The notes beneath the pieces are model-generated. The model was given only the letters and a program-made list of their open reading frames with translations. It had not been told where the DNA came from and did no database searches. DNA of 64,000 nt from Methylophilus sp. QUAN (lineage in GTDB: Bacteria; Pseudomonadota; Gammaproteobacteria; Burkholderiales; Methylophilaceae): contig NZ_JADKYT010000002.1 of the NCBI RefSeq assembly GCF_015354445.1, forward strand, positions 372,001-436,000. The letters run 5' to 3'. The position numbers were made by a program, and so were the translations under genes. Shown in pieces: positions 28,165-37,897 of the stretch (positions are counted from its first letter, which is position 1; each line of letters opens with the position of its first letter).

Positions 28165-28284
28165 GTACGTGGGTGTTCGGTGTTAAAGGCTCAATCTCAT
28201 ATTGTAGCGGTTGTGCGTTTTTTAAAGTGCCTGTGATGAATTAATCTGCGATTTAGAACATGCAAATACAGGGAGCAGGCCTGA

Positions 28285-28303
28285 ATTCAGCTTGGTTTAA
28301 GAT
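28285..28303. promoter_or_regulatory. shared box upstream of the PepSY two-component operon
   Basis: ATTCAGCTTGGTTTAAGAT here matches ATTCAGTTTGGTGAAAGAT at 31152-31170 at 16 of 19 positions. The two copies flank the operon encoding the response regulator, so this may be its binding site and give autoregulation. Confidence 0.45.
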
Positions 28304-28355
28304 GAATACTGTTAAACTTTGGTCGATTTCAGTAGTTTTTGAGGGATGTGACGCT

Positions 28356-28682
28356 ATGTTTTGGATGCAACGCCGCACATGGATAGGGCTTTTTACGCTG
28401 CTTGCTGTATTGCTTGCGCTGGTTTACCTGCCTCGTGCAGACTCAGGTGAAAGTGCCACCAGCGCTGGGCGTTTATCGGCGAAAGGCGATATTTTGAGCT
28501 TGGAAAAAATCTCACAAAAAGCCAGAAGCTATAAACCTGGCGAGATTCTGGAGGTCGAACTTGAGAAAAAGCATGGGCGGTATATTTATGAGGTTGAGAT
28601 ACTGGATGCCGCTAGCCAGGTGTGGGAGCTTAAACTGGACGCCAAGAGCGGGCAGTTACTCAAAATGGAGCAGGACGACTAA
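28356..28682 (+). CDS. membrane-anchored PepSY domain protein
   Basis: A 108-aa protein. An N-terminal span (about 6-24) is followed by one extracytoplasmic PepSY domain (about 45-105), recognisable from ISQKARSYKPGEILEVELEKKHGRYIYEVEIL...VWELKLDAKSGQLLKME. Single PepSY proteins next to two-component genes often modulate the kinase. The start at 28356 is placed by GAGGGATG upstream and by the signal anchor. It is four bases from the response-regulator gene, hence the same operon. Confidence 0.82.
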   Translation: MFWMQRRTWIGLFTLLAVLLALVYLPRADSGESATSAGRLSAKGDILSLEKISQKARSYKPGEILEVELEKKHGRYIYEVEILDAASQVWELKLDAKSGQLLKMEQDD

Positions 28683-28685
28683 AGT

Positions 28686-29366
28686 ATGCGTTTGCTGTTG
28701 GTAGAGGATGACGCTGTGCTCGGCGCACAGACACAGCAGGCACTCAAAGCGGCGGGCTATGCTTGCGACTGGCTGCAAGAGGGCAGTGAGGCCAGCATAC
28801 AAGGTACGCTTGAGCCCTATGACCTGGCGATCCTGGATCTCGGTTTGCCGGGCAAGCCTGGTTTGGATGTGCTGGCTGAATGGCGTGCAAAACCTGGCAG
28901 TATGCCGGTGATCGTATTAACCGCGCGCAGTAGCTGGCAAGAGAAGGTGGAGGCATTTAATTTGGGCGCGGATGACTATGTGACCAAGCCTTTCCATATG
29001 GAGGAATTGCTGGCACGTATCAGTGCCGTGCATAAGCGTAGCGTGGGTGTAGTGAATGGCGCGCTGGTAGTGGCAGATTTAAGCCTGGACGAGCAGACAC
29101 AAACCATCTGGCAGGGCGACACCGCACATGCATTGACGGGCACCGAGTTCAGGTTGCTGCGCTACCTGATGTTGCATCCCGGGCGAATTTTTTCTAAAAC
29201 CGAACTCACCGAGCATGTCTACGCCTATGATGCAGATAAAGACAGCAATGTGATTGAGGTCTATATCAACCGCTTGCGGCAGAAAGTCGGTGCTGACCGC
29301 ATCCAGACCAAACGTGGTCAGGGCTATCTGTTTACAGGTGGCCAGACGTCAGGTGTGGGCGCATGA
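28686..29366 (+). CDS. OmpR-family response regulator (QseB/PmrA-like)
   Basis: A 226-aa DNA-binding regulator. The receiver has LVEDD, phospho-Asp in LAILDLGLPG and Lys in YVTKPFHMEEL. The winged-helix domain ends SNVIEVYINRLRQKVGADRIQTKRGQGYLF. QseB/PmrA-type regulators bind direct repeats at 11-base spacing, and such a repeat (GTGAAAG twice) lies at 31162-31179 near the end of this cluster. The gene overlaps the kinase start by four bases (ATGA). Confidence 0.9.
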   Translation: MRLLLVEDDAVLGAQTQQALKAAGYACDWLQEGSEASIQGTLEPYDLAILDLGLPGKPGLDVLAEWRAKPGSMPVIVLTARSSWQEKVEAFNLGADDYVTKPFHMEELLARISAVHKRSVGVVNGALVVADLSLDEQTQTIWQGDTAHALTGTEFRLLRYLMLHPGRIFSKTELTEHVYAYDADKDSNVIEVYINRLRQKVGADRIQTKRGQGYLFTGGQTSGVGA

Positions 29367-30724
29367 AGTCGCTGCGCAGACAGCTATCGCTGGGCTTGAC
29401 GCTGAGCCTGGTTGGGCTGCTGACGCTGCAATGGGCGGTGGTCACCTTTACCATAGACCATTTAATCCAGTCGCAATTGACGGCGCGTATGCAACAAGAA
29501 GCCGAAGGCTTGCTGGCCGGCGTGTCGGTGAACGCGCGCGGAGAATTGGCGCTGGAGCCGCGACTGATTACAACCAGTTATCAGCGCCCCTTTTCTGGCC
29601 GCTATTTTATTGTGCTGCTAGACAATACAGGCAAGGACGCTGCACACAAGATACAGTCTCGCTCCTGGTGGGATGTGGATATGCCGGTGAGTGCGCTCAA
29701 GGTCGGTGAGGAGCGGGTCAGCCATGTTAGCGGCCCGGAATCGCAACCGTTGCTGCTATTGGGGCATGCTTACCGTAAACAGCAACGCACCATCACGATT
29801 TATATTGCAGAAAGCCTGGTCGAGCTTCAGCAAAGCCTGCGCCTGTTTCATTGGTTGTATGGCGTGTTTTCCTTGCTGGGTTTGCTGGCGTTGCTGGCAT
29901 TACAGCGCTGGATTGTGGTGAATACGCTGCTGCCTTTGCAGCAAATCAAGGAAAACCTGGCAAAAGTCGCTAGCGGTGAGGTACAGCAGATTAATGCTGG
30001 CGGCCCGTCTGAAGTCATGCCGCTGGTCAACGAGTTTAACCGCATCCTCAAAAGTACCAGCCAGAAAACCCGGCGTTCACGCCTGGCCATTGGCAATCTG
30101 GCACATGGGCTCAAAACCCGCCTGGCGCAGTTGCAATTGCTGGCGGGTAACGGATCCGTGGATGGGGATACGCAGTTACGGCAGATGATACAAAACTGTA
30201 GCGAAGAGATACACCATGATGTCGAACGTGAATTAAAACGCGCACGACTCATGGGCGATGTTTACACCAGCCAGCAGACTGATTTAGATGTAGAGTTACC
30301 TAAACTGGTGACCACTTTGCAGAGGATTTATAGCAATAAGACAGTGGCATTTGCCTGGCAGCACGATGGGCAGGCCCGCGTGATGGTTGACCGTGAAGAC
30401 ATGCTGGAGTTGCTAGGTAATGTGCTGGATAACGCCTTTAAATGGTGTCACGGTCAGGTGCAGTTACATGTATCAGTGCAAGACGTGATCCAGATTGTGG
30501 TTGAAGATGATGGCCCAGGTAGCAGCGCGCCGACATTGGATACGTTGTTGCAGCGCGGTATGCGTATGGATGAATCCAAACCCGGCAGTGGTTTGGGGCT
30601 GGCGATTGTGCAGGATATTGTGCAGCACTACCACGGCCAGGTGACGCTCACTCACTCTGAGCGACTGGGTGGTTTGCGCATCCAGATGACGCTGGCACCC
30701 ACGTCGGTAGGCACCAGCGTTTAA
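29363..30724 (+). CDS. PhoQ/QseC-like sensor histidine kinase
   Basis: A 453-aa kinase with a membrane span at about 9-29, a periplasmic domain of about 130 residues, a second span (about 160-182), HAMP, and a phospho-acceptor histidine in IGNLAHGLKTRLAQLQLL. The ATPase domain has N box DNAFKWCHG and G2 GSGLGLAIVQDIVQHYHG. The H box has HGLKT rather than HELRT, a PhoQ-like form. It is translationally coupled to its regulator and probably monitored by the PepSY proteins on either side. Confidence 0.88.
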   Translation: MKSLRRQLSLGLTLSLVGLLTLQWAVVTFTIDHLIQSQLTARMQQEAEGLLAGVSVNARGELALEPRLITTSYQRPFSGRYFIVLLDNTGKDAAHKIQSRSWWDVDMPVSALKVGEERVSHVSGPESQPLLLLGHAYRKQQRTITIYIAESLVELQQSLRLFHWLYGVFSLLGLLALLALQRWIVVNTLLPLQQIKENLAKVASGEVQQINAGGPSEVMPLVNEFNRILKSTSQKTRRSRLAIGNLAHGLKTRLAQLQLLAGNGSVDGDTQLRQMIQNCSEEIHHDVERELKRARLMGDVYTSQQTDLDVELPKLVTTLQRIYSNKTVAFAWQHDGQARVMVDREDMLELLGNVLDNAFKWCHGQVQLHVSVQDVIQIVVEDDGPGSSAPTLDTLLQRGMRMDESKPGSGLGLAIVQDIVQHYHGQVTLTHSERLGGLRIQMTLAPTSVGTSV

Positions 30725-30727
30725 GCC

Positions 30728-31063
30728 TTAAAACCAGTCACGGTTGATGCTGTTGACCTTGCCGGTTTTGGCATCGATATATACTTCCCATTCGGCACCA
30801 TTGCTATCGACAATTTCAACTTCGTAATCCCAGCCGGATTTGAATTTTCTGCGCTCCAGTTCGACCTCTTTCACCACACCAGGCTTGGCTGCCAGCGCTT
30901 TGCTTTGTGCTTCTTCATGTGAAATCAGGCCAAACGCTTTGGCCTTTTCAGTCATTTTTTGCACGTCATCATCATCGTCTGCCAGTGCAGGGTGGCTGGC
31001 CATCGCGCCTAAGAATAGAGCGATCATGAGCAGGTTAACGGATTTGTTTGAGGCTTTATGCAT
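30728..31063 (-). CDS. secreted PepSY domain protein
   Basis: A 111-aa protein with signal peptide (cleavage near ALA-DD, residue 29), an acidic DDDDD stretch, then one PepSY domain (ISHEEAQSKALAAKPGVVKEVELERRKFKSGWDYEVEIV...WEVYIDAKTGKVNSINRDW). The start at 31063 follows GGAGATCACG. It converges on the kinase gene with only three bases between stops. It shares domain and probably regulation with the PepSY gene at 28.4 kb. The acidic run after the signal could bind metal ions, but this is speculation. Confidence 0.85.
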   Translation of the reverse strand: MHKASNKSVNLLMIALFLGAMASHPALADDDDDVQKMTEKAKAFGLISHEEAQSKALAAKPGVVKEVELERRKFKSGWDYEVEIVDSNGAEWEVYIDAKTGKVNSINRDWF

Positions 31064-31151
31064 CGTGATCTCCATGTGATTGATTGAGTATTCACGATAC
31101 TGCACGCGCCTTAATTCAAACTGAAAACACAGATAAATGCTGCGGGCAGGC

Positions 31152-31179
31152 ATTCAGTTTGGTGAAAGATTTGTGAAAG
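31152..31179. promoter_or_regulatory. shared box with 11-base direct repeat between PepSY and small secreted gene
   Basis: ATTCAGTTTGGTGAAAGAT (31152-31170) resembles the box at 28285. GTGAAAG occurs at 31162-31168 and 31173-31179, an 11-base period as bound by OmpR-family dimers. It lies between the minus-strand PepSY gene and the plus-strand small secreted gene and could control both. Confidence 0.5.
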
Positions 31180-31269
31180 TCTGCTGTAAGGCAAGTGCGC
31201 TAGAGTGAACACCATCAAATCCGTCTCACAAAGGCGGCAATAGTGAAGTCTCAATTAAAGGAGCGTGCG

Positions 31270-31524
31270 ATGAAAATAGTGAAATTAGTTGGTTTAATTG
31301 GTTTGGTTACCATGTCATTTGCTGGATCTGCAATGGCGGATCAGTCTGTTGTCACTCAAAACATTGCGAAAAGACCGGTGTTTGAGCTGTCTACTGCAAA
31401 TGCAGATCAGGCTTGGGAGGGCGCAAGCCTGAAGAAAGATATTCGCCTACAGGCGCTAAGTGCGCGTACAAATTTACAATTTGTAAGTAAACGCGCTTAT
31501 CTTGCACCAGTAGCAACTGACTAA
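31270..31524 (+). CDS. small secreted protein, KRPY-motif family (member 1)
   Basis: An 84-aa protein with a signal peptide cleaved near residue 23 (SAMA-DQ). The mature ~60 residues contain NIAKRPVFEL, then NADQAWEGASLKKD, then FVSKRAY. This order (KRPx - [DE]xxWxGA - KRxY) is shared with the two small proteins at 34.9 and 35.2 kb. The start follows AAAGGAGCGTGCG. No known family is recognised. It is downstream of a probable response-regulator site. Confidence 0.72.
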   Translation: MKIVKLVGLIGLVTMSFAGSAMADQSVVTQNIAKRPVFELSTANADQAWEGASLKKDIRLQALSARTNLQFVSKRAYLAPVATD

Positions 31525-31527
31525 CTA

Positions 31528-31983
31528 TCAGGATGAATAGCCTGGTAGTTGCAGGTTAGGCTGGTGCTGTTTGAGTTGAGTAAACAACCAGCGTGTCTCA
31601 AGCAGTATCCAGACACGTAGCATGGCCTCCATCGGGTCAAAAGGCTTGGTTAAAAAGTCTTTTGCACCCAATGCCAGTGCCTTGCGGCGCGTGGCGATGG
31701 TGGCGTCTGCGGTGAGCACCAGCACGGGTAGGTATTCATGCGGTCCGACATGGTGTGAAAGCTGGTCGAGGACGGCAAAACCATCCAGTACCGGCATCAT
31801 GAGGTCCAGCAAAATCAGGTCGGGTTGAAACGCATTGACCAGGTCCATGGTTTTGGTCGAGTCGGTTGTGCTGATGACTTGCTCAAAGCCTTCCTTGGTC
31901 AGTAACTCTTCCAGCAGTCGCAGATTGGCCTCGGCATCATCGACGATTAAAATTTTGGAGGCACGTAGTTGTTCTATATTCAT
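31528..31983 (-). CDS. single-domain response regulator
   Basis: A 151-aa receiver (about 9-130) with no output domain: IVDDAEAN, phospho-Asp in LILLDLMMPVLDG, Thr in VLVLTAD, Lys in DFLTKPFDPMEA. A 20-residue tail follows. It overlaps the hybrid kinase stop (ATGA), so it is the third gene of a LuxR-kinase-receiver operon and probably a phosphorelay partner. It converges on the small secreted gene, with three bases between stops. Confidence 0.88.
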   Translation of the reverse strand: MNIEQLRASKILIVDDAEANLRLLEELLTKEGFEQVISTTDSTKTMDLVNAFQPDLILLDLMMPVLDGFAVLDQLSHHVGPHEYLPVLVLTADATIATRRKALALGAKDFLTKPFDPMEAMLRVWILLETRWLFTQLKQHQPNLQLPGYSS

Positions 31984-33959
31984 GGGGTCTCTGGTAGAAG
32001 TTTTAGTAATAACTGGTTAAAAGCGGCGACATTCAACGGCTTGGTAAAGTAATGCGCGATGCCCAGGGTGTTGAGGCGTTGCATAGTTTCCGGCAAGGCG
32101 TCTGCACTTAAAATCACCACCGGGATATGTTGCAAGTCTGTGCGGCTGGATTGAATATGCTGGATCAAGGATTCTCCCGAGCCATCCGGCAGGTTGAGGT
32201 CCAGCAGCAGCAAGTCTGGCTGCATATCGCGCAACCAGACCATGCTTTCTTGCACACTGGCCGCCAGGTGTAGCTTGAGGTGCCTGTGTTTGCTTAATAT
32301 GGCTTCTATCAGGGCCTGGTTGCTATGGTTATCTTCTACATAGAGGATGTGGCGTTTGGCTGCGGGCGTAGCCGACGTTGCGCGGTGCGGCGCAGCGTCA
32401 ATGGCAATCTCTTTGTCCATGGCTGTCACTGGGGTGGCCTGAACTGCCTCTGGCAGGCTGATCCAGAACAGGCTTTGGTCTTCGGCAACGCCGATTTGGC
32501 CGCCCATGGCATCCATCAGTTGCTTGCTGAGCACCAGGCCCAAGCCTGTACCTTCAGTCACGGTGCGCTCAGCCCCCAGCCGATCAAAGGGGGTAAAGAG
32601 CCGCGAGCGCAAGGCTGCTGGGATGCCTTGCCCCTGGTCTTTCACATCGACACGGATATGACCGTTTAGGCGGTAAGCACTGAAGATGACGCTGGTGTTT
32701 TCTGGACCATATTTCAAAGCATTGGCCAGCAGGTTTAAAATCACCTGCAGCAAGCGCTGACGGTCGGCGCGCACTTTCAAATCAGGCTCAAAATGCGTTT
32801 CTATGGTGATGTCGCGCACTTTTTCCAGTGGCTTGAGATAGTGGTAGGCTTCTTCTAGCAGTAGATTCAGGGCGATGACTTCCATAGACATACTGATATC
32901 GCCACTTTCAATGCGCGAAATATCCAGTACTTCATTAATCAGCTTCAGCAAGTGTTGGCCGGCATTATGAATCAGCGTTGCGCTGTCTTTTTGCCGCCCT
33001 TCAGGCAAGTCGTTTTCGAGGATCTGCGCAAAGCCCAAAATCGCGTTTAATGGCGTGCGCAGCTCATGACTGGTACGTGATAAAAAATTACTCTTGGCAG
33101 CACTGGCTTCTTCTGCCTCTACACGGGCTAGGTGCGCTTCCTGCGCACTTTGTGTCAGCAATTGCGAGGCATGCTCCAGTTCACTGGTGAGTTCACCCAA
33201 CTCGTCACGGCTGATGCTAGGCAAGGCCAGAGGTTCGCCCTTGACCAGGTGTATGGCGCTATCGCGTATGGTTTTGACGCGGGCGACAATGGTTTGGGTA
33301 AACAGCCAGACGCCAATCAGCGAGCCGACTACGCCCGCAATCACGGCCATCAGCGTGATGCGTAAATTGCGCTTGCGTTCGTACACCACTTCTTTTTTGT
33401 CCTGGTTAACGATGGCGGATTCGCGCAAGCTCATGCGCTCAAGATGGGCACGCAGTTGATTTAAGGCATTGCCCTGTGAGCTGAATTTACCAATCAGTGC
33501 TTCATCAGCCTCTTCTTCACTGTGACTAGCCAGGGTCGCCAGGTCGTCCAGGTTTTTGGCGACCAATGGATGAATCACTTGCAACAGGTGTTGTTGCGAG
33601 CGGTCATCCAGGTTGTGTTCCAGTGAACTCAGTAAGTGTGGCATGCTTTGTCTGGCGCTTTCGTAGCCTGTCAGAAACTGGCGGTTACCTGTCAGCAGGA
33701 AATCACGCACGCCGGTGGAGGCTTCGAGCAACAGGGTTTGCAGGGTCTGGATATCCTGCTGGATTTGTAGCGCATTTTGCACGCGTCTTTCCAGCAGTGC
33801 GGCTTGTTGTTCGCTTTCAAAAATCAGGGCCAGTGAGGCCAGCAATACGGTCAAGGGTAGGGCATTAAGCACAATGCCTTTGGTGGTCAGCGATAAATCC
33901 TGCCACAAGCGGTCCATGCGGTGGGTGGCATTCGTCATGGCATGAAGTATGACTTTCAT
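31980..33959 (-). CDS. hybrid sensor histidine kinase with CHASE3-like sensor
   Basis: A 659-aa protein. A first membrane span (about 28-46) leads to an extracytoplasmic helical domain of the CHASE3 type (about 50-205; QTLLLEASTGVRDFLLTGNRQFL), then a second span (about 208-228) and HAMP. HisKA follows with the acceptor His in FLSRTSHELRTPLNAILGFAQ, then HATPase (NLLANALKYGP, DQGQGI, GTGLGLVLSKQL). A C-terminal receiver domain ends the protein (phospho-Asp in LLLLDLNLPDGSG). It lies between a LuxR regulator and a lone receiver, indicating a phosphorelay. Confidence 0.9.
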   Translation of the reverse strand: MKVILHAMTNATHRMDRLWQDLSLTTKGIVLNALPLTVLLASLALIFESEQQAALLERRVQNALQIQQDIQTLQTLLLEASTGVRDFLLTGNRQFLTGYESARQSMPHLLSSLEHNLDDRSQQHLLQVIHPLVAKNLDDLATLASHSEEEADEALIGKFSSQGNALNQLRAHLERMSLRESAIVNQDKKEVVYERKRNLRITLMAVIAGVVGSLIGVWLFTQTIVARVKTIRDSAIHLVKGEPLALPSISRDELGELTSELEHASQLLTQSAQEAHLARVEAEEASAAKSNFLSRTSHELRTPLNAILGFAQILENDLPEGRQKDSATLIHNAGQHLLKLINEVLDISRIESGDISMSMEVIALNLLLEEAYHYLKPLEKVRDITIETHFEPDLKVRADRQRLLQVILNLLANALKYGPENTSVIFSAYRLNGHIRVDVKDQGQGIPAALRSRLFTPFDRLGAERTVTEGTGLGLVLSKQLMDAMGGQIGVAEDQSLFWISLPEAVQATPVTAMDKEIAIDAAPHRATSATPAAKRHILYVEDNHSNQALIEAILSKHRHLKLHLAASVQESMVWLRDMQPDLLLLDLNLPDGSGESLIQHIQSSRTDLQHIPVVILSADALPETMQRLNTLGIAHYFTKPLNVAAFNQLLLKLLPETP

Positions 33960-33962
33960 CTG

Positions 33963-34727
33963 TTATAACCCATCACTTTTGAATCCGGCCTCAACGGCTT
34001 TGACGGCGGCCTGCGTGCGGTCGTTCAGGTCCAGTTTGCTTAGAATACGTTCAATATGGATTTTGACGGTGCCCGGCGAGATGCCCAGTTTTTGCGCTAA
34101 TGCGGCGTTGCTTGCGCCTGAAGGCAGCAGCGCGAAGACTTCGCGCTCACGGGGCGTGAGTTTTTGCAGGTAGCTATCATCAATGGCTGTGGCGGTTTGG
34201 CTGTGTCCTTGCAGTGCGAATCCAAGTAGGCCACAGACACTATGTAGTAATTGCAGGTTGCTGGGACTTAAGGGGTTGCCGGTGATTAGGCCGAGTAACC
34301 CCACAGCGCGTTGCTGGCAGGCGATGGGCAAGTGGTAGCAATGCATGGCAGGTGAAGTGTTTGCTTGCAGGGTCCACAGGCTGGGCACAAATTGCGCGTG
34401 TACTTCAAAGTGTATGGGTTCTTTCAGCCATTGTCCCAGCGCGCCCAACATGGGCACACGAGCGCCGACCGGAAAAGTTTTTCCACGTTGCGCCAGTATC
34501 TTCAATGCCCCGGCATGCTGCTGGCTAATCAGGCCATGTGCCGCGCCGAATTGCATGCACAACTCATCAAGCAGCCATTGTAGTAAGTCTTCAGACCAGC
34601 CATGCATGAACAATTTCTGTCCAAGCCGTTCAAACAATCTGTCGTGAGCCAGTTGTACCTGCGATTGTTTAAGCGCATTGCGTAAGGCAAACGCGCTTTC
34701 TGTGGGTGGGGGGCTGTCATTCGGCAT
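33963..34727 (-). CDS. LuxR-family transcriptional regulator with GAF-like sensor
   Basis: A 254-aa regulator. An N-terminal GAF-like domain (about 30-170; ALKILAQRGKTFPVG, LPIACQQRAVGLLGLI) is followed by a C-terminal LuxR helix-turn-helix (LTPREREVFALLPSGASNAA, then TVKIHIERILSKLDLNDRTQ). There is no receiver domain. The start at 34727 is preferred because the upstream extension runs into the divergent promoter region. It heads the operon with the hybrid kinase, whose ATG is three bases after its stop. Confidence 0.85.
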   Translation of the reverse strand: MPNDSPPPTESAFALRNALKQSQVQLAHDRLFERLGQKLFMHGWSEDLLQWLLDELCMQFGAAHGLISQQHAGALKILAQRGKTFPVGARVPMLGALGQWLKEPIHFEVHAQFVPSLWTLQANTSPAMHCYHLPIACQQRAVGLLGLITGNPLSPSNLQLLHSVCGLLGFALQGHSQTATAIDDSYLQKLTPREREVFALLPSGASNAALAQKLGISPGTVKIHIERILSKLDLNDRTQAAVKAVEAGFKSDGL

Positions 34728-34742
34728 ATGCCGTTTAGTATA

Positions 34743-34764
34743 TACCGAACTACCTATATCGGTA
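34743..34764. promoter_or_regulatory. inverted repeat TACCGA-N10-TCGGTA
   Basis: Perfect 6-base arms with a 10-base spacer lie 16 bases upstream of the luxR-type gene start and 107 bases before the divergent small secreted gene. The size fits a LuxR-type dimer site, so autoregulation is possible. Confidence 0.5.
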
Positions 34765-34870
34765 GATTTTTTGTTGCCAGACCACGGGCAAAATGCAAAC
34801 CATCGTGAATGCATCAACATTCATACAAAACGAAACAACTGGTCTGAAAGACAATTAAAGGAGAAATAAT

Positions 34871-35122
34871 ATGCGTAAAGTAACTGCTATCGTTGCCGTG
34901 GTATTGGGTTTGAGTGTTGTGTTGCCAGTGCAGGCGGCTGACACTAATGTAGAGGCTGTGCAAAGAGCACATCAGGTACATTTCCTGGGTAAGCGTCCTT
35001 ATCAACAAGTGGTTGCCAAGGCTGATGCCGAGCAAGCCTGGGTAGGGGCTACGCTGCGTGTGGAGCCAAACAATCAGCAGCAGGTATTAAAACTGCACAA
35101 CCTGGGCAAGCGTGCTTTCTAG
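34871..35122 (+). CDS. small secreted protein, KRPY-motif family (member 2)
   Basis: An 83-aa protein with a signal peptide cleaved near VQA-AD (residue 23). The mature part contains HFLGKRPYQQVV, ADAEQAWVGATLRVE and LHNLGKRAF, a duplicated LGKR-aromatic motif flanking a WVGA core. AAAGGAGAAATAAT precedes the ATG. It is followed 84 bases later by a third member of the family. It is divergent from the LuxR-kinase operon. No known family is recognised. Confidence 0.75.
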   Translation: MRKVTAIVAVVLGLSVVLPVQAADTNVEAVQRAHQVHFLGKRPYQQVVAKADAEQAWVGATLRVEPNNQQQVLKLHNLGKRAF

Positions 35123-35206
35123 TCAGTGTTGCGTAAGGTTGTTGGCACATAATTACCTTACACCTACCCCAGGTGTATACACAAATAAATTATGTAGGAG
35201 CGATAA

Positions 35207-35494
35207 ATGAGTAAATTATTATTGGCACTCTTGGTGACATTTGGTTTAATGGCTAATGTACACGCAGAGGAAACACTGGATCAGGACATGGGCGTAAAAG
35301 ATTTGCATCATAAAAACTTTTTAGGTCAGCGTCCTTATGCCAAAACACCTGTAGCGAAACAAAACTCCGATGAAAAATGGGTAGGTGCGGGCATCGTGAC
35401 TGACAAGCCGGAAAAAGGCTTCGATAAACATCAACAAATGCGTTTGAACTTTATTGGCAAACGTCCATATACCGGTAGCACCACAGCGGATTAA
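35207..35494 (+). CDS. small secreted protein, KRPY-motif family (member 3)
   Basis: A 95-aa protein. A signal peptide (cleavage near VHA-EE, residue 21) is followed by KNFLGQRPYAKTPV, NSDEKWVGAGIVTDKP and LNFIGKRPYTGST. It has the same architecture as the two other members and the clearest pair of RPY motifs. GTAGGAGCG precedes the ATG, and a terminator follows. Function unknown. Confidence 0.75.
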   Translation: MSKLLLALLVTFGLMANVHAEETLDQDMGVKDLHHKNFLGQRPYAKTPVAKQNSDEKWVGAGIVTDKPEKGFDKHQQMRLNFIGKRPYTGSTTAD

Positions 35495-35519
35495 TTCGCT
35501 GATACCGCTCTAACAATAA

Positions 35520-35541
35520 CCCCGCATCATTGCGGGGTTTT
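35520..35541 (+). terminator. Rho-independent terminator after the small secreted genes
   Basis: CCCCGCA (35520-35526) and TGCGGGG (35531-35537) form a 7-base-pair stem with loop TCAT, followed by TTTT. Confidence 0.88.
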
Positions 35542-35609: not shown

Positions 35610-37196
35610 ATGTCAACCTCAGTGCAGGGGTCTAGCCCGCTAGACTTGTTCAAGCACATCAATCGAGACTTACCAGCCTCCATTGTCGTGTTTTTTGTGG
35701 CATTGCCACTTTGTTTAGGTATCGCGCTGGCGTCGGGTGCGCCGCTATTTTCGGGCGTGATTGCCGGGATTGTCGGTGGCATCGTTGTTGGCCTGGCCAG
35801 CGGCTCGCAACTGGGGGTCAGTGGCCCGGCAGCTGGCCTGGCTGTGATTGTGATGGCGGCCATTGGTAATCTGGGTTCTTATGAGGTTTTTCTGGCGGCG
35901 GTGGTGCTCGCTGGTGTATTCCAGTTTTTGCTGGGGCAGTTGAAAGCCGGTTTTATTGCCTACTTTGTGCCATCTTCAGTGATTACCGGCATGCTCACAG
36001 GCATAGGTTTGCTGATTATCCTCAAGCAGATTCCGCATGCATTTGGTTACGATGCGGACTACGAAGGCGATGAATCTTTTGATGCATTTGCCGGGCATGA
36101 TACCTTCAGCGATATTTTGCAGGCATGGGACCTGTTAACCCCTGGCGCAGTCTTGATTGCGGCCGTGTCTTTCGCGATTCTGATCCTGTGGGATACGGTG
36201 CTGACCAAAAAACACCGGATTTTCCAACTGCTGCAAGGGCCAATTGTGGTGGTGCTGGTCGGTATCCTGCTCAACGTGGCCTTTATGCGCGGCTGGTTGA
36301 ATTTCACCTTGAGTGACGACCAGATTGTGCGCTTGCCTGTAGCGAGCAGCTTGGGCGAGTTTGCCAGCTTCTTTACCCATCCTGATTTCAGCAAGATCAC
36401 GCAGCCGCTGGTGATTAAAACTGCGTTGGTCATGGCCATTGTCGCCAGCCTGGAAACACTCCTTTGTGTCGAAGCGACTGACAAACTGGATACACACAAA
36501 CGTGTGACGCCGACCAACAAAGAACTCAAGGCGCAAGGCTTGGGTAATATTGTCTCAGGGCTGATTGGTGGTTTGCCGATTACGCAGGTGATTGTGCGTA
36601 GTAGTGCCAACGTGACTTTTGGTGCGCAAACAAAATTGTCTGCAGTTTTGCATGGTTTCTGGCTGTTGCTGAGTGCAATTACCATTGCCAGCTTCCTCAA
36701 CCTGATCCCTCTGGCCAGCTTGGCCACTATCCTGATTATGGTGGGTTACAAACTGGCTAAACCTAAACTGTTCAAACAAATGTACCAGTTGGGCTGGGAG
36801 CAGTTTGTGCCGTTTATCGTGACGATAGTCGCGATCGTGTTTACCGATCTGTTGACCGGCATCGGCCTGGGCCTTGTGATTGCGATCTTTTTCACCTTGC
36901 ATCACAGCTACCGCAATTCGCACTACATCAAGCAAACGCGTTCTACCAAAGACGGCAAAGAGGTGTATGAGTTAGTGCTGGCGGAAGAGGTTTCCTTCTT
37001 TAACAAGGCCAGCATCCTGGAGGTATTGGAAGCCATTCCACCGAATAGCAAAGTGGTGATTGATTGCACCAATAGCAAATCAATTGCTTATGATGTGGTG
37101 GAGTTTATCCACGGCTACCAACAACACGCCAAGTTGAAAAATATTGATGTAGAAACCATTGATTTCAAACCACCCAAGCATATGCTGGGACATTAA
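35610..37196 (+). CDS. SulP-family anion transporter
   Basis: A 528-aa inner-membrane transporter with 10 or more helices. The SulP signature segment near the N-terminus reads DLPASIVVFFVALPLCLGIALASGAPLFSG...GVSGPAAGLAVIV. A short STAS-like C-terminal domain is present (about 455-520; VVIDCTNSKSIAYDVVEFIHGY). SulP proteins carry bicarbonate, sulfate or other anions. The gene 56 bases downstream is a carbonic anhydrase, favouring bicarbonate; sulfate remains possible given the sulfur theme of the region. Confidence 0.9.
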   Translation: MSTSVQGSSPLDLFKHINRDLPASIVVFFVALPLCLGIALASGAPLFSGVIAGIVGGIVVGLASGSQLGVSGPAAGLAVIVMAAIGNLGSYEVFLAAVVLAGVFQFLLGQLKAGFIAYFVPSSVITGMLTGIGLLIILKQIPHAFGYDADYEGDESFDAFAGHDTFSDILQAWDLLTPGAVLIAAVSFAILILWDTVLTKKHRIFQLLQGPIVVVLVGILLNVAFMRGWLNFTLSDDQIVRLPVASSLGEFASFFTHPDFSKITQPLVIKTALVMAIVASLETLLCVEATDKLDTHKRVTPTNKELKAQGLGNIVSGLIGGLPITQVIVRSSANVTFGAQTKLSAVLHGFWLLLSAITIASFLNLIPLASLATILIMVGYKLAKPKLFKQMYQLGWEQFVPFIVTIVAIVFTDLLTGIGLGLVIAIFFTLHHSYRNSHYIKQTRSTKDGKEVYELVLAEEVSFFNKASILEVLEAIPPNSKVVIDCTNSKSIAYDVVEFIHGYQQHAKLKNIDVETIDFKPPKHMLGH

Positions 37197-37252: not shown

Positions 37253-37897
37253 ATGTACAAGCACCCATTACTCGACCGCGACAAAATGACTGCGCGTGAA
37301 GCACTGGATATCTTGATTGAAGGCAATCACCGGTTTATTACCGACCGTGAACAGGACAAGGATTTCAAAAGCCTGATTCAAATCACCAAGGATAAACAAC
37401 ATCCGTTCTCGTCTTTTTTGAGCTGCAGTGACTCACGTGCGCCTGTAGAGCTGTTGTTTGATCAGGCATTGGGTGATGTGTTCAGCGTGCGCCTGGCTGG
37501 TAATATTGCTTCAGACAAAGCCATCGGCAGCCTGGAGTTTGGCAGCAAGTACCTGGGTAGCAAGCTGATTGTGGTCATGGGCCATACTTCTTGCGGCGCA
37601 GTCAAAGCGGCATGTGATGACTTTAAAGATGGTCATATTGGCGAGATTATCAACCTGATCAAACCTTCTATCCGTCACGAAAAGACCATTACCGATCCGG
37701 CCCAGCGCAATTCAAAAAACAGTGATTTTGTAGAGAAGATTTGCGCGTTAAACGTGAAATACCAGATCGATACTATCATTCGTTGCAGTGACATTATTGA
37801 TGATATGTTGCAAAGCAAGCAGATCGGTATTGTCGGCGCGGTCTACGATATCTCTACCGGTAAAGTGGACTTCCTGGAAGACACCTTTATTGGTTAA
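37253..37897 (+). CDS. can-like: beta-class carbonic anhydrase
   Basis: Interconverts CO2 and bicarbonate in the cytoplasm. The 214-aa protein has zinc ligands C58 (SCSDSRAP), H111 and C114 (GHTSCGAVKAA), with D60 and R62 forming the catalytic pair. It is co-oriented with the SulP transporter and shares the downstream terminator, so the pair probably supplies bicarbonate for carboxylation. Confidence 0.95.
   Translation: MYKHPLLDRDKMTAREALDILIEGNHRFITDREQDKDFKSLIQITKDKQHPFSSFLSCSDSRAPVELLFDQALGDVFSVRLAGNIASDKAIGSLEFGSKYLGSKLIVVMGHTSCGAVKAACDDFKDGHIGEIINLIKPSIRHEKTITDPAQRNSKNSDFVEKICALNVKYQIDTIIRCSDIIDDMLQSKQIGIVGAVYDISTGKVDFLEDTFIG

Follow-up and report, generated by a model that had tools for sequence, protein, structure and literature searches.

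Organization of the locus

We analyzed a 64,000-nucleotide stretch of the Methylophilus sp. QUAN genome (positions 372,001 to 436,000 of contig NZ_JADKYT010000002.1; hereafter the window), in which genes for small, apparently exported proteins flank a minus-strand operon for a LuxR regulator, a CHASE3 hybrid kinase and a receiver protein. A preliminary description of this DNA had reported three such open reading frames (ORFs) around a LuxR/hybrid-kinase operon. Their coordinates, strands and ends were confirmed, and their linkage to the operon is real. The shared operator, the fourth copy and the A and B subtypes presented below are additions to that description. The genes are as follows.

31270–31524, plus strand: type C member of the small-protein family, 84 amino acids (aa), divergent; an upstream LuxR-type operator was not found
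31528–31983, minus strand: stand-alone receiver-domain protein
31980–33959, minus strand: CHASE3 hybrid histidine kinase (HisKA, HATPase and REC domains)
33963–34727, minus strand: GAF-LuxR (GerE) regulator; start at 34727, against 34820 in the longest ORF
34871–35122, plus strand: type A member, 83 aa, whose last motif, KRAF, is the C-terminus
35207–35494, plus strand: type B member, 95 aa, whose last motif, KRPY, is followed by a 7-residue tail
G000:C3:94906–95133, elsewhere in the genome: type D member, the fourth copy

The array beside the LuxR gene thus runs A (34871) and then B (35207). The LuxR start at 34727 was chosen from conservation and from the length of the protein in other genera. 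Position 31270 is an ATG internal to a longer ORF that begins with GTG at 31243.

A family of small proteins with two short motifs

The proteins follow a common plan of signal peptide, about 20 residues, motif 1, a W-[EV]-G-A core, a linker and motif 2. In the protein at 34871 these elements read FLGKRPY, EQAWVGA and NLGKRAF (the end of the protein); at 35207, FLGQRPY, DEKWVGA and FIGKRPY with the 7-residue tail; and at 31270, NIAKRPV, DQAWEGA and FVSKRAY, again with a 7-residue tail. The family is real, as the preliminary description held, but its wording of the paired motif as GKRPY was too strict, since FLGQRPY, NIAKRPV and FVSKRAY also occur. The motif, two copies of which flank the W-x-G-A core, is better written as [LIV]-[GSA]-[KQ]-R-[PA]-[YFV].

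Alignment A1 has 41 rows; a profile was built from 34 of them, with the 31270-type and C3-type sequences removed. Among 2694 ORFs of 45–200 aa, it recovered the 31270 protein (E=1.1e-8) and the C3 copy (E=6.8e-12), and the same ORFs gave zero matches after shuffling. Therefore, the types belong to a single family beyond chance. As its own query, the 31270 protein reached E<=0.1 in 11 of 31 genomes; several of these matches were weak, and some ran through A or B members.

Both motifs were recognisable in 81 of 89 distinct members, and one of the 89 lacks the first motif; the motif counts omit members without recognisable motifs. The motif-to-motif distance is 39–52 residues in those 81 members, and the tail after motif 2 is bimodal, with 0–3 residues (mostly 0) or 5–7. 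The labels A and B denote the short-tail and the 5–7-residue-tail groups, respectively. One type B gene (G014, L052:1966-2193) is truncated by a stop codon, and its near-identical copy in G021 is intact.

In alignment A1, the arginine of both motifs is invariant and the lysine is common, which would suit peptide precursors cut after KR pairs, as the preliminary description had suggested. However, proline after a dibasic pair should block cleavage, and it follows the arginine of the first motif in 77 of 88 cases and that of the last motif in 51 of 81; cleavage at KR is therefore unlikely. In type A, moreover, the last motif forms the C-terminus, and the second cut would free only a dipeptide. 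We give this explanation almost no credence. The KRPY-like ending recalls neurotensin and xenopsin peptides, a resemblance that we take to be coincidence.

No match above the cut-off was obtained for family members in Pfam, NCBIfam, PHROGs or the PDB sequences, in agreement with the preliminary description, whose author knew of no family with this pattern. Two Pfam families that each matched one member (E 0.006–0.007), and a few further lines to known domains at E 0.016–0.33, were taken as chance. In the window, no Rfam family reached its gathering score. The YhcN/BhsA/McbA proteins of enterobacteria (DUF1471) are also exported, about 85 residues long and present as several paralogues, but they have different motifs and occur in another bacterial family, and no member of the present family had a Pfam match to DUF1471. 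The Sec-exported, Cys-rich, metal-binding bufferin-type ribosomally produced peptides differ as well: they have conserved core cysteines, whereas only one of the 89 distinct members has a cysteine in its mature part. Among the neighbours scanned, a subset of the total, no modifying enzyme was recognised. Searches of an open-licence library turned up no title or abstract beginning on the family, a result that does not show absence from print. Passages of PMC3728764, PMC8399692 and PMC5723320 do not mention these genes.

Distribution and linkage to the regulatory module

Profile matches were found in 42 of 187 Methylophilaceae genomes and in 7 of 24 genera, counting a weak match in G138 (E=0.004), so conservation extends beyond close strains. 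The carriers are Methylophilus and Methylotenera relatives, methanol-using bacteria. Matches occurred in 4 of 399 genomes of an order sample, all from the same bacterial family, and in 1 of 369 genomes of a class sample, the window's own; none lay outside this family in the two sets, which are samples and in some genomes of which only part of the first-look candidates was scored. Single-sequence searches also gave weak matches in two genomes, G051 from the same order (E 0.03) and G032 from the same bacterial family (E 0.08); the profiles did not confirm them, and both were dropped.

The family and the LuxR gene co-occur closely. A LuxR ortholog (E<=1e-30) is present in 42 of the 187 genomes, 41 of which are also family-positive (Fisher p 5e-39, not a true probability because the genomes are related). 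A family gene without LuxR was seen in G018, an assembly that is 80% complete and in about 390 contigs. Conversely, G136 has LuxR and no profile match to the family, and the weak match of G138 lies elsewhere in its genome. In both, the gap between LuxR and the SulP transporter gene holds an ORF of 68 residues that starts with a signal-like segment and carries a single C-terminal FLGSRPY, which suggests that the C-terminal motif may stand alone.

L165:253-459, minus strand: single-motif short form in the LuxR–SulP gap of G136
L166:229-435, minus strand: single-motif short form in the LuxR–SulP gap of G138

The kinase (E<=1e-110) occurs in 40 of the 187 genomes, all of them LuxR-positive; G118, where the contig ends soon after LuxR, has no kinase match.

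We read 41 stretches that had been picked around family matches; some are near-identical (L052 and L055), and their fractions describe arrangement rather than frequency. The gene maps omit ORFs shorter than 95 aa other than family members. In 28 of the stretches, GAF-LuxR is divergent from one to three family genes, with a hybrid kinase called beside it in 26 and a stand-alone receiver in 25. The remaining 13 comprise seven unlinked A/B pairs, three type D copies, two lone divergent members (L114 and L118) and L116, in which LuxR was not intact as called. In five stretches (L053, L054, L056, L060 and L062), a second A/B site lies beside a YaeQ-cluster gene and a TetR/outer-membrane-efflux cluster, with a ThiC-cluster gene on the opposite side in L053, L054 and L060. 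Other unlinked A/B copies adjoin different genes, for example an ABC transporter.

A conserved operator before the family genes

The region between the LuxR and type A genes contains a conserved element followed by a hexamer.

34725–34771, no strand: conserved regulatory element CATATGCC..AGTATATACCG..CTACCTATATCGGTAGATTTTT, with a palindrome at 34750–34765
34789–34794, plus strand: putative −10 box of the A-B transcript, 31 bp from the palindrome centre; CAAAAT here and CATAAT in many other loci

When 28 divergent regions were aligned, they revealed one strongly conserved block, CATATGCC-N4-AGTATAYACCG-N2-MTACCTAT-N3-GGTAGATTTTT, and then a CATAAT-like hexamer. The palindrome centre was set at a constant distance from AGTATA, and the hexamer was allowed to start 25–36 bp from it; the spacing was 31 bp in 27 of the 28 loci and 30 bp in the other. 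Taking the hexamer as a −10 box would put the operator centre near −43, a class II activator geometry; the −43 region is the usual place for an activator that contacts RNA polymerase. A LuxR-activated regulon of class II geometry should have a conserved site at a fixed distance before the −10 of its targets, near −41.5 to −43, and the A/B loci have such a site when measured from the putative −10. No good −35 was seen in the A-B promoter, and a generic promoter scan listed nothing at the hexamer.

The same element overlaps the LuxR start codon and the putative LuxR −10 (34742–34737, minus strand). On the minus strand, TATACT precedes the LuxR start codon (34727) by 9 nt; the LuxR message may therefore have almost no leader, and LuxR may repress its own production by binding here.

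The operator is nearly confined to family genes. The same block was present in all 12 aligned unlinked A/B loci, where operator and hexamer aligned without a gap between them. A pattern search (<=2 mismatches) of 27 selected genomes, of which 24 are family-positive, found 35 sites. Thirty-two sites lie directly before family genes, and one (G007) is at a contig end, with a family gene opening another contig. Two sites inside other ORFs (G016:C25:42946 and G022:C1:41033) were treated as chance. A position weight matrix trained on the 28 LuxR-linked sites gave scores above 11 at 69 places in the 41 stretches, counting both strands of the palindrome, and the only sites away from family genes were L063:10640 (12.5) and L107:10715 (11.0). 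In G010, the LuxR locus retains LuxR and kinase with a partial operator and no adjoining family gene, and the pair located elsewhere has the operator, an arrangement consistent with action in trans. Among the 24 contigs returned by an operator scan of named genome contigs, 19 are titled Methylophilus, Methylotenera, Methylophilaceae or Methylopumilus, three are titled only Betaproteobacteria bacterium, and two are from Bacteroidota (one a Prevotella) and probably match by chance.

From these sequence features, it is very probable that LuxR controls A and B. Because almost all operator sites, linked and unlinked, are at family genes, the family appears to be the main output of the module.

Predicted export, possible disorder and rate of change

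Signal peptides had been proposed for these proteins, and they do look exported: by our own heuristic, a signal-peptide-like N-terminus (an early K/R, a hydrophobic stretch and an [AVSTG]xA site) is present in 40 of 41 members of alignment A2, for which we selected the start codons. AlphaFold2 gave pLDDT 62 and pTM 0.19 for B and 60 and 0.18 for A, with a short helix preceding each motif. Such models are compatible with disorder and are not proof of it.

The small family changes faster than the neighbouring genes: within Methylophilus, mean identity is 65% for the first gene of the array (6 loci) and 66% for the last (8 loci), compared with 80% in LuxR and 86% in the kinase domain. In five loci, dN/dS was 0.18 (A), 0.10 (B) and 0.044 (LuxR), with dS of 1.1–1.8, which is near saturation. 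The values of 0.10–0.18 point to purifying selection on A and B.

The A and B genes frequently lie side by side, and their products differ in the residues after the last motif (mostly 0 versus 5–7), as might be expected of a secreted two-peptide antimicrobial. However, their leaders look Sec-type rather than double-glycine and the synteny is stable across genera, and we regard such a function as very unlikely.

Proposed mechanism and alternatives

In the proposed mechanism, an envelope or redox cue would act on the CHASE3 kinase and on the stand-alone receiver, and these would set the activity of GAF-LuxR. LuxR would bind the CTACC-N6-GGTAG element near −43 of the A-B promoter and activate A and B, and in trans also the unlinked copies. 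Since this element also overlaps the LuxR promoter, LuxR would probably repress its own gene. A and B would leave the cytoplasm through Sec and function, in the periplasm or beyond it, as bivalent short-motif proteins that are largely disordered. Their two copies of about 10 residues ending in [GSA]-K-R-[PA]-[YF], on either side of the W-E/V-G-A core, could then dock on an envelope partner, and the proteins would serve as an adaptor or protectant; docking and protection are speculative. Our judgement is evenly divided on this reading, in which the LuxR/hybrid-kinase/receiver module is dedicated to producing the small proteins and these act as a bivalent envelope adaptor or protectant.

Several observations weigh against this mechanism. 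Bivalent docking is drawn solely from the conservation of the motifs, and the low AlphaFold confidence, obtained with 37 alignment rows, is weak evidence for disorder. The spacing was measured from a centre set by the AGTATA offset, and four loci also have a candidate hexamer at 36 bp. The palindrome is degenerate in the LuxR-linked loci L052, L055, L109 and L113. A reversed control pattern gave 7 matches, against 35 for the operator, in the same 27 genomes. G017 and G192 carry family genes and no pattern match; the weight matrix does score their sites, but these belong to its training set. Types C (31270) and D (the C3 copy) are without the operator; therefore, not every member would be in the regulon. 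Finally, G024 has LuxR and the receiver with no kinase match.

One alternative is feedback of the CpxP/Spy kind, in which the exported proteins, once abundant, would damp the module by binding the CHASE3 domain of the kinase, which is predicted to be periplasmic. The genes of the module co-occur, the exported-looking proteins adjoin a CHASE3 kinase, and Spy and CpxP are likewise small, apparently Sec-exported outputs of a kinase-linked regulator. However, no LTXXQ-type Pfam domain was found at E<=0.01 in 41 members, and there was no Spy or CpxP domain match; the sole NCBIfam Spy line covers residues 1–37 of the 34871 protein at E=0.039. The family also differs in looking disordered, in its two short motifs and in having a LuxR rather than an OmpR-type regulator. 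In addition, the kinase is missing from G024, which still has LuxR and two family genes, and the CHASE3 region is 75–82% identical where the small proteins are 53–66% identical, so no co-diversification is visible. We consider feedback on the kinase unlikely.

Alternatively, A and B, whole or trimmed, might leave the cell and be sensed by the kinase as an autocrine or population signal, forming a Gram-negative peptide circuit. As in the agr and com operons, small precursor-like genes adjoin a sensor, a receiver and an activator; the operator is almost confined to family genes; the proteins change faster than their neighbours; and there are several paralogues per genome. In contrast to agr and com, the family is Gram-negative with a Sec-type leader, and no exporter or processing enzyme was recognised among the conserved neighbours scanned, not all of which were covered. 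The motifs are constant rather than strain-specific, and the dN/dS values indicate purifying selection. We therefore hold a signalling role to be improbable. The same low standing applies to its fullest form, in which the disordered bivalent KRPY proteins would be at once the chief product of the LuxR/CHASE3-kinase module and the signal that it senses, a previously undescribed Gram-negative circuit copied around the genome together with its operator and tuning the dose and the A:B mixture.

The genes downstream of the array suggest a further role.

35518–35539, plus strand: terminator-like hairpin, after type B and before the SulP gene
35610–37196, plus strand: SulP-family transporter, a syntenic neighbour
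37253–37897, plus strand: syntenic neighbour gene, whose product we presume by eye to be beta-carbonic-anhydrase-like

The small proteins could be accessory factors of the SulP transporter and its carbonic-anhydrase-like neighbour, for the uptake of inorganic carbon or sulfate. In 23 of the 28 LuxR-linked loci, SulP directly follows the array (in L055 the stretch ends early and SulP lies just beyond its end), and a close SulP is found in 40 of the 42 family-positive genomes. However, the association is looser, with SulP in 49 of the 187 genomes, nine of which have no family profile match, and two family-positive genomes, G034 and G192, lack a close SulP. A hairpin candidate, of mixed quality, separates the array from SulP in 21 of the 28 loci and is absent from seven, and the unlinked A/B copies adjoin other genes (YaeQ/efflux or an ABC transporter). 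An accessory role is thus given a low probability.

Among the possible molecular roles, we place the bivalent envelope adaptor or protectant first, kinase feedback second, and a signal or SulP accessory next. Whichever applies, a whole sensor-activator module apparently exists mainly for one orphan exported family in methanol-using bacteria. The operator offers a ready reporter whose inducer would reveal the cue and the role of the family, and the constant motif could serve as bait for an envelope partner.

Further elements near the genes

Two inverted repeats lie between A and B: GTAAGG-N17-CCTTAC at 35133–35161 and ACACCT/AGGTGT at 35160–35176. The arms of the second change together in G004 and G005 (ACATCT/AGATGT). 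These repeats are possibly an RNA hairpin or the site of a second regulator.

Upstream of the type C gene, a direct repeat of GTGAAAG with an 11-bp period (31162–31179) is found, also in G004 and G005, and looks like an OmpR-family site. An OmpR-type regulator was recognised by eye at 28686–29366. In the region 28260–31153, PepSY-like genes at 28260–28682 (by clustering) and 30728–31153 (by Pfam) flank a response regulator/kinase pair, identified by eye.

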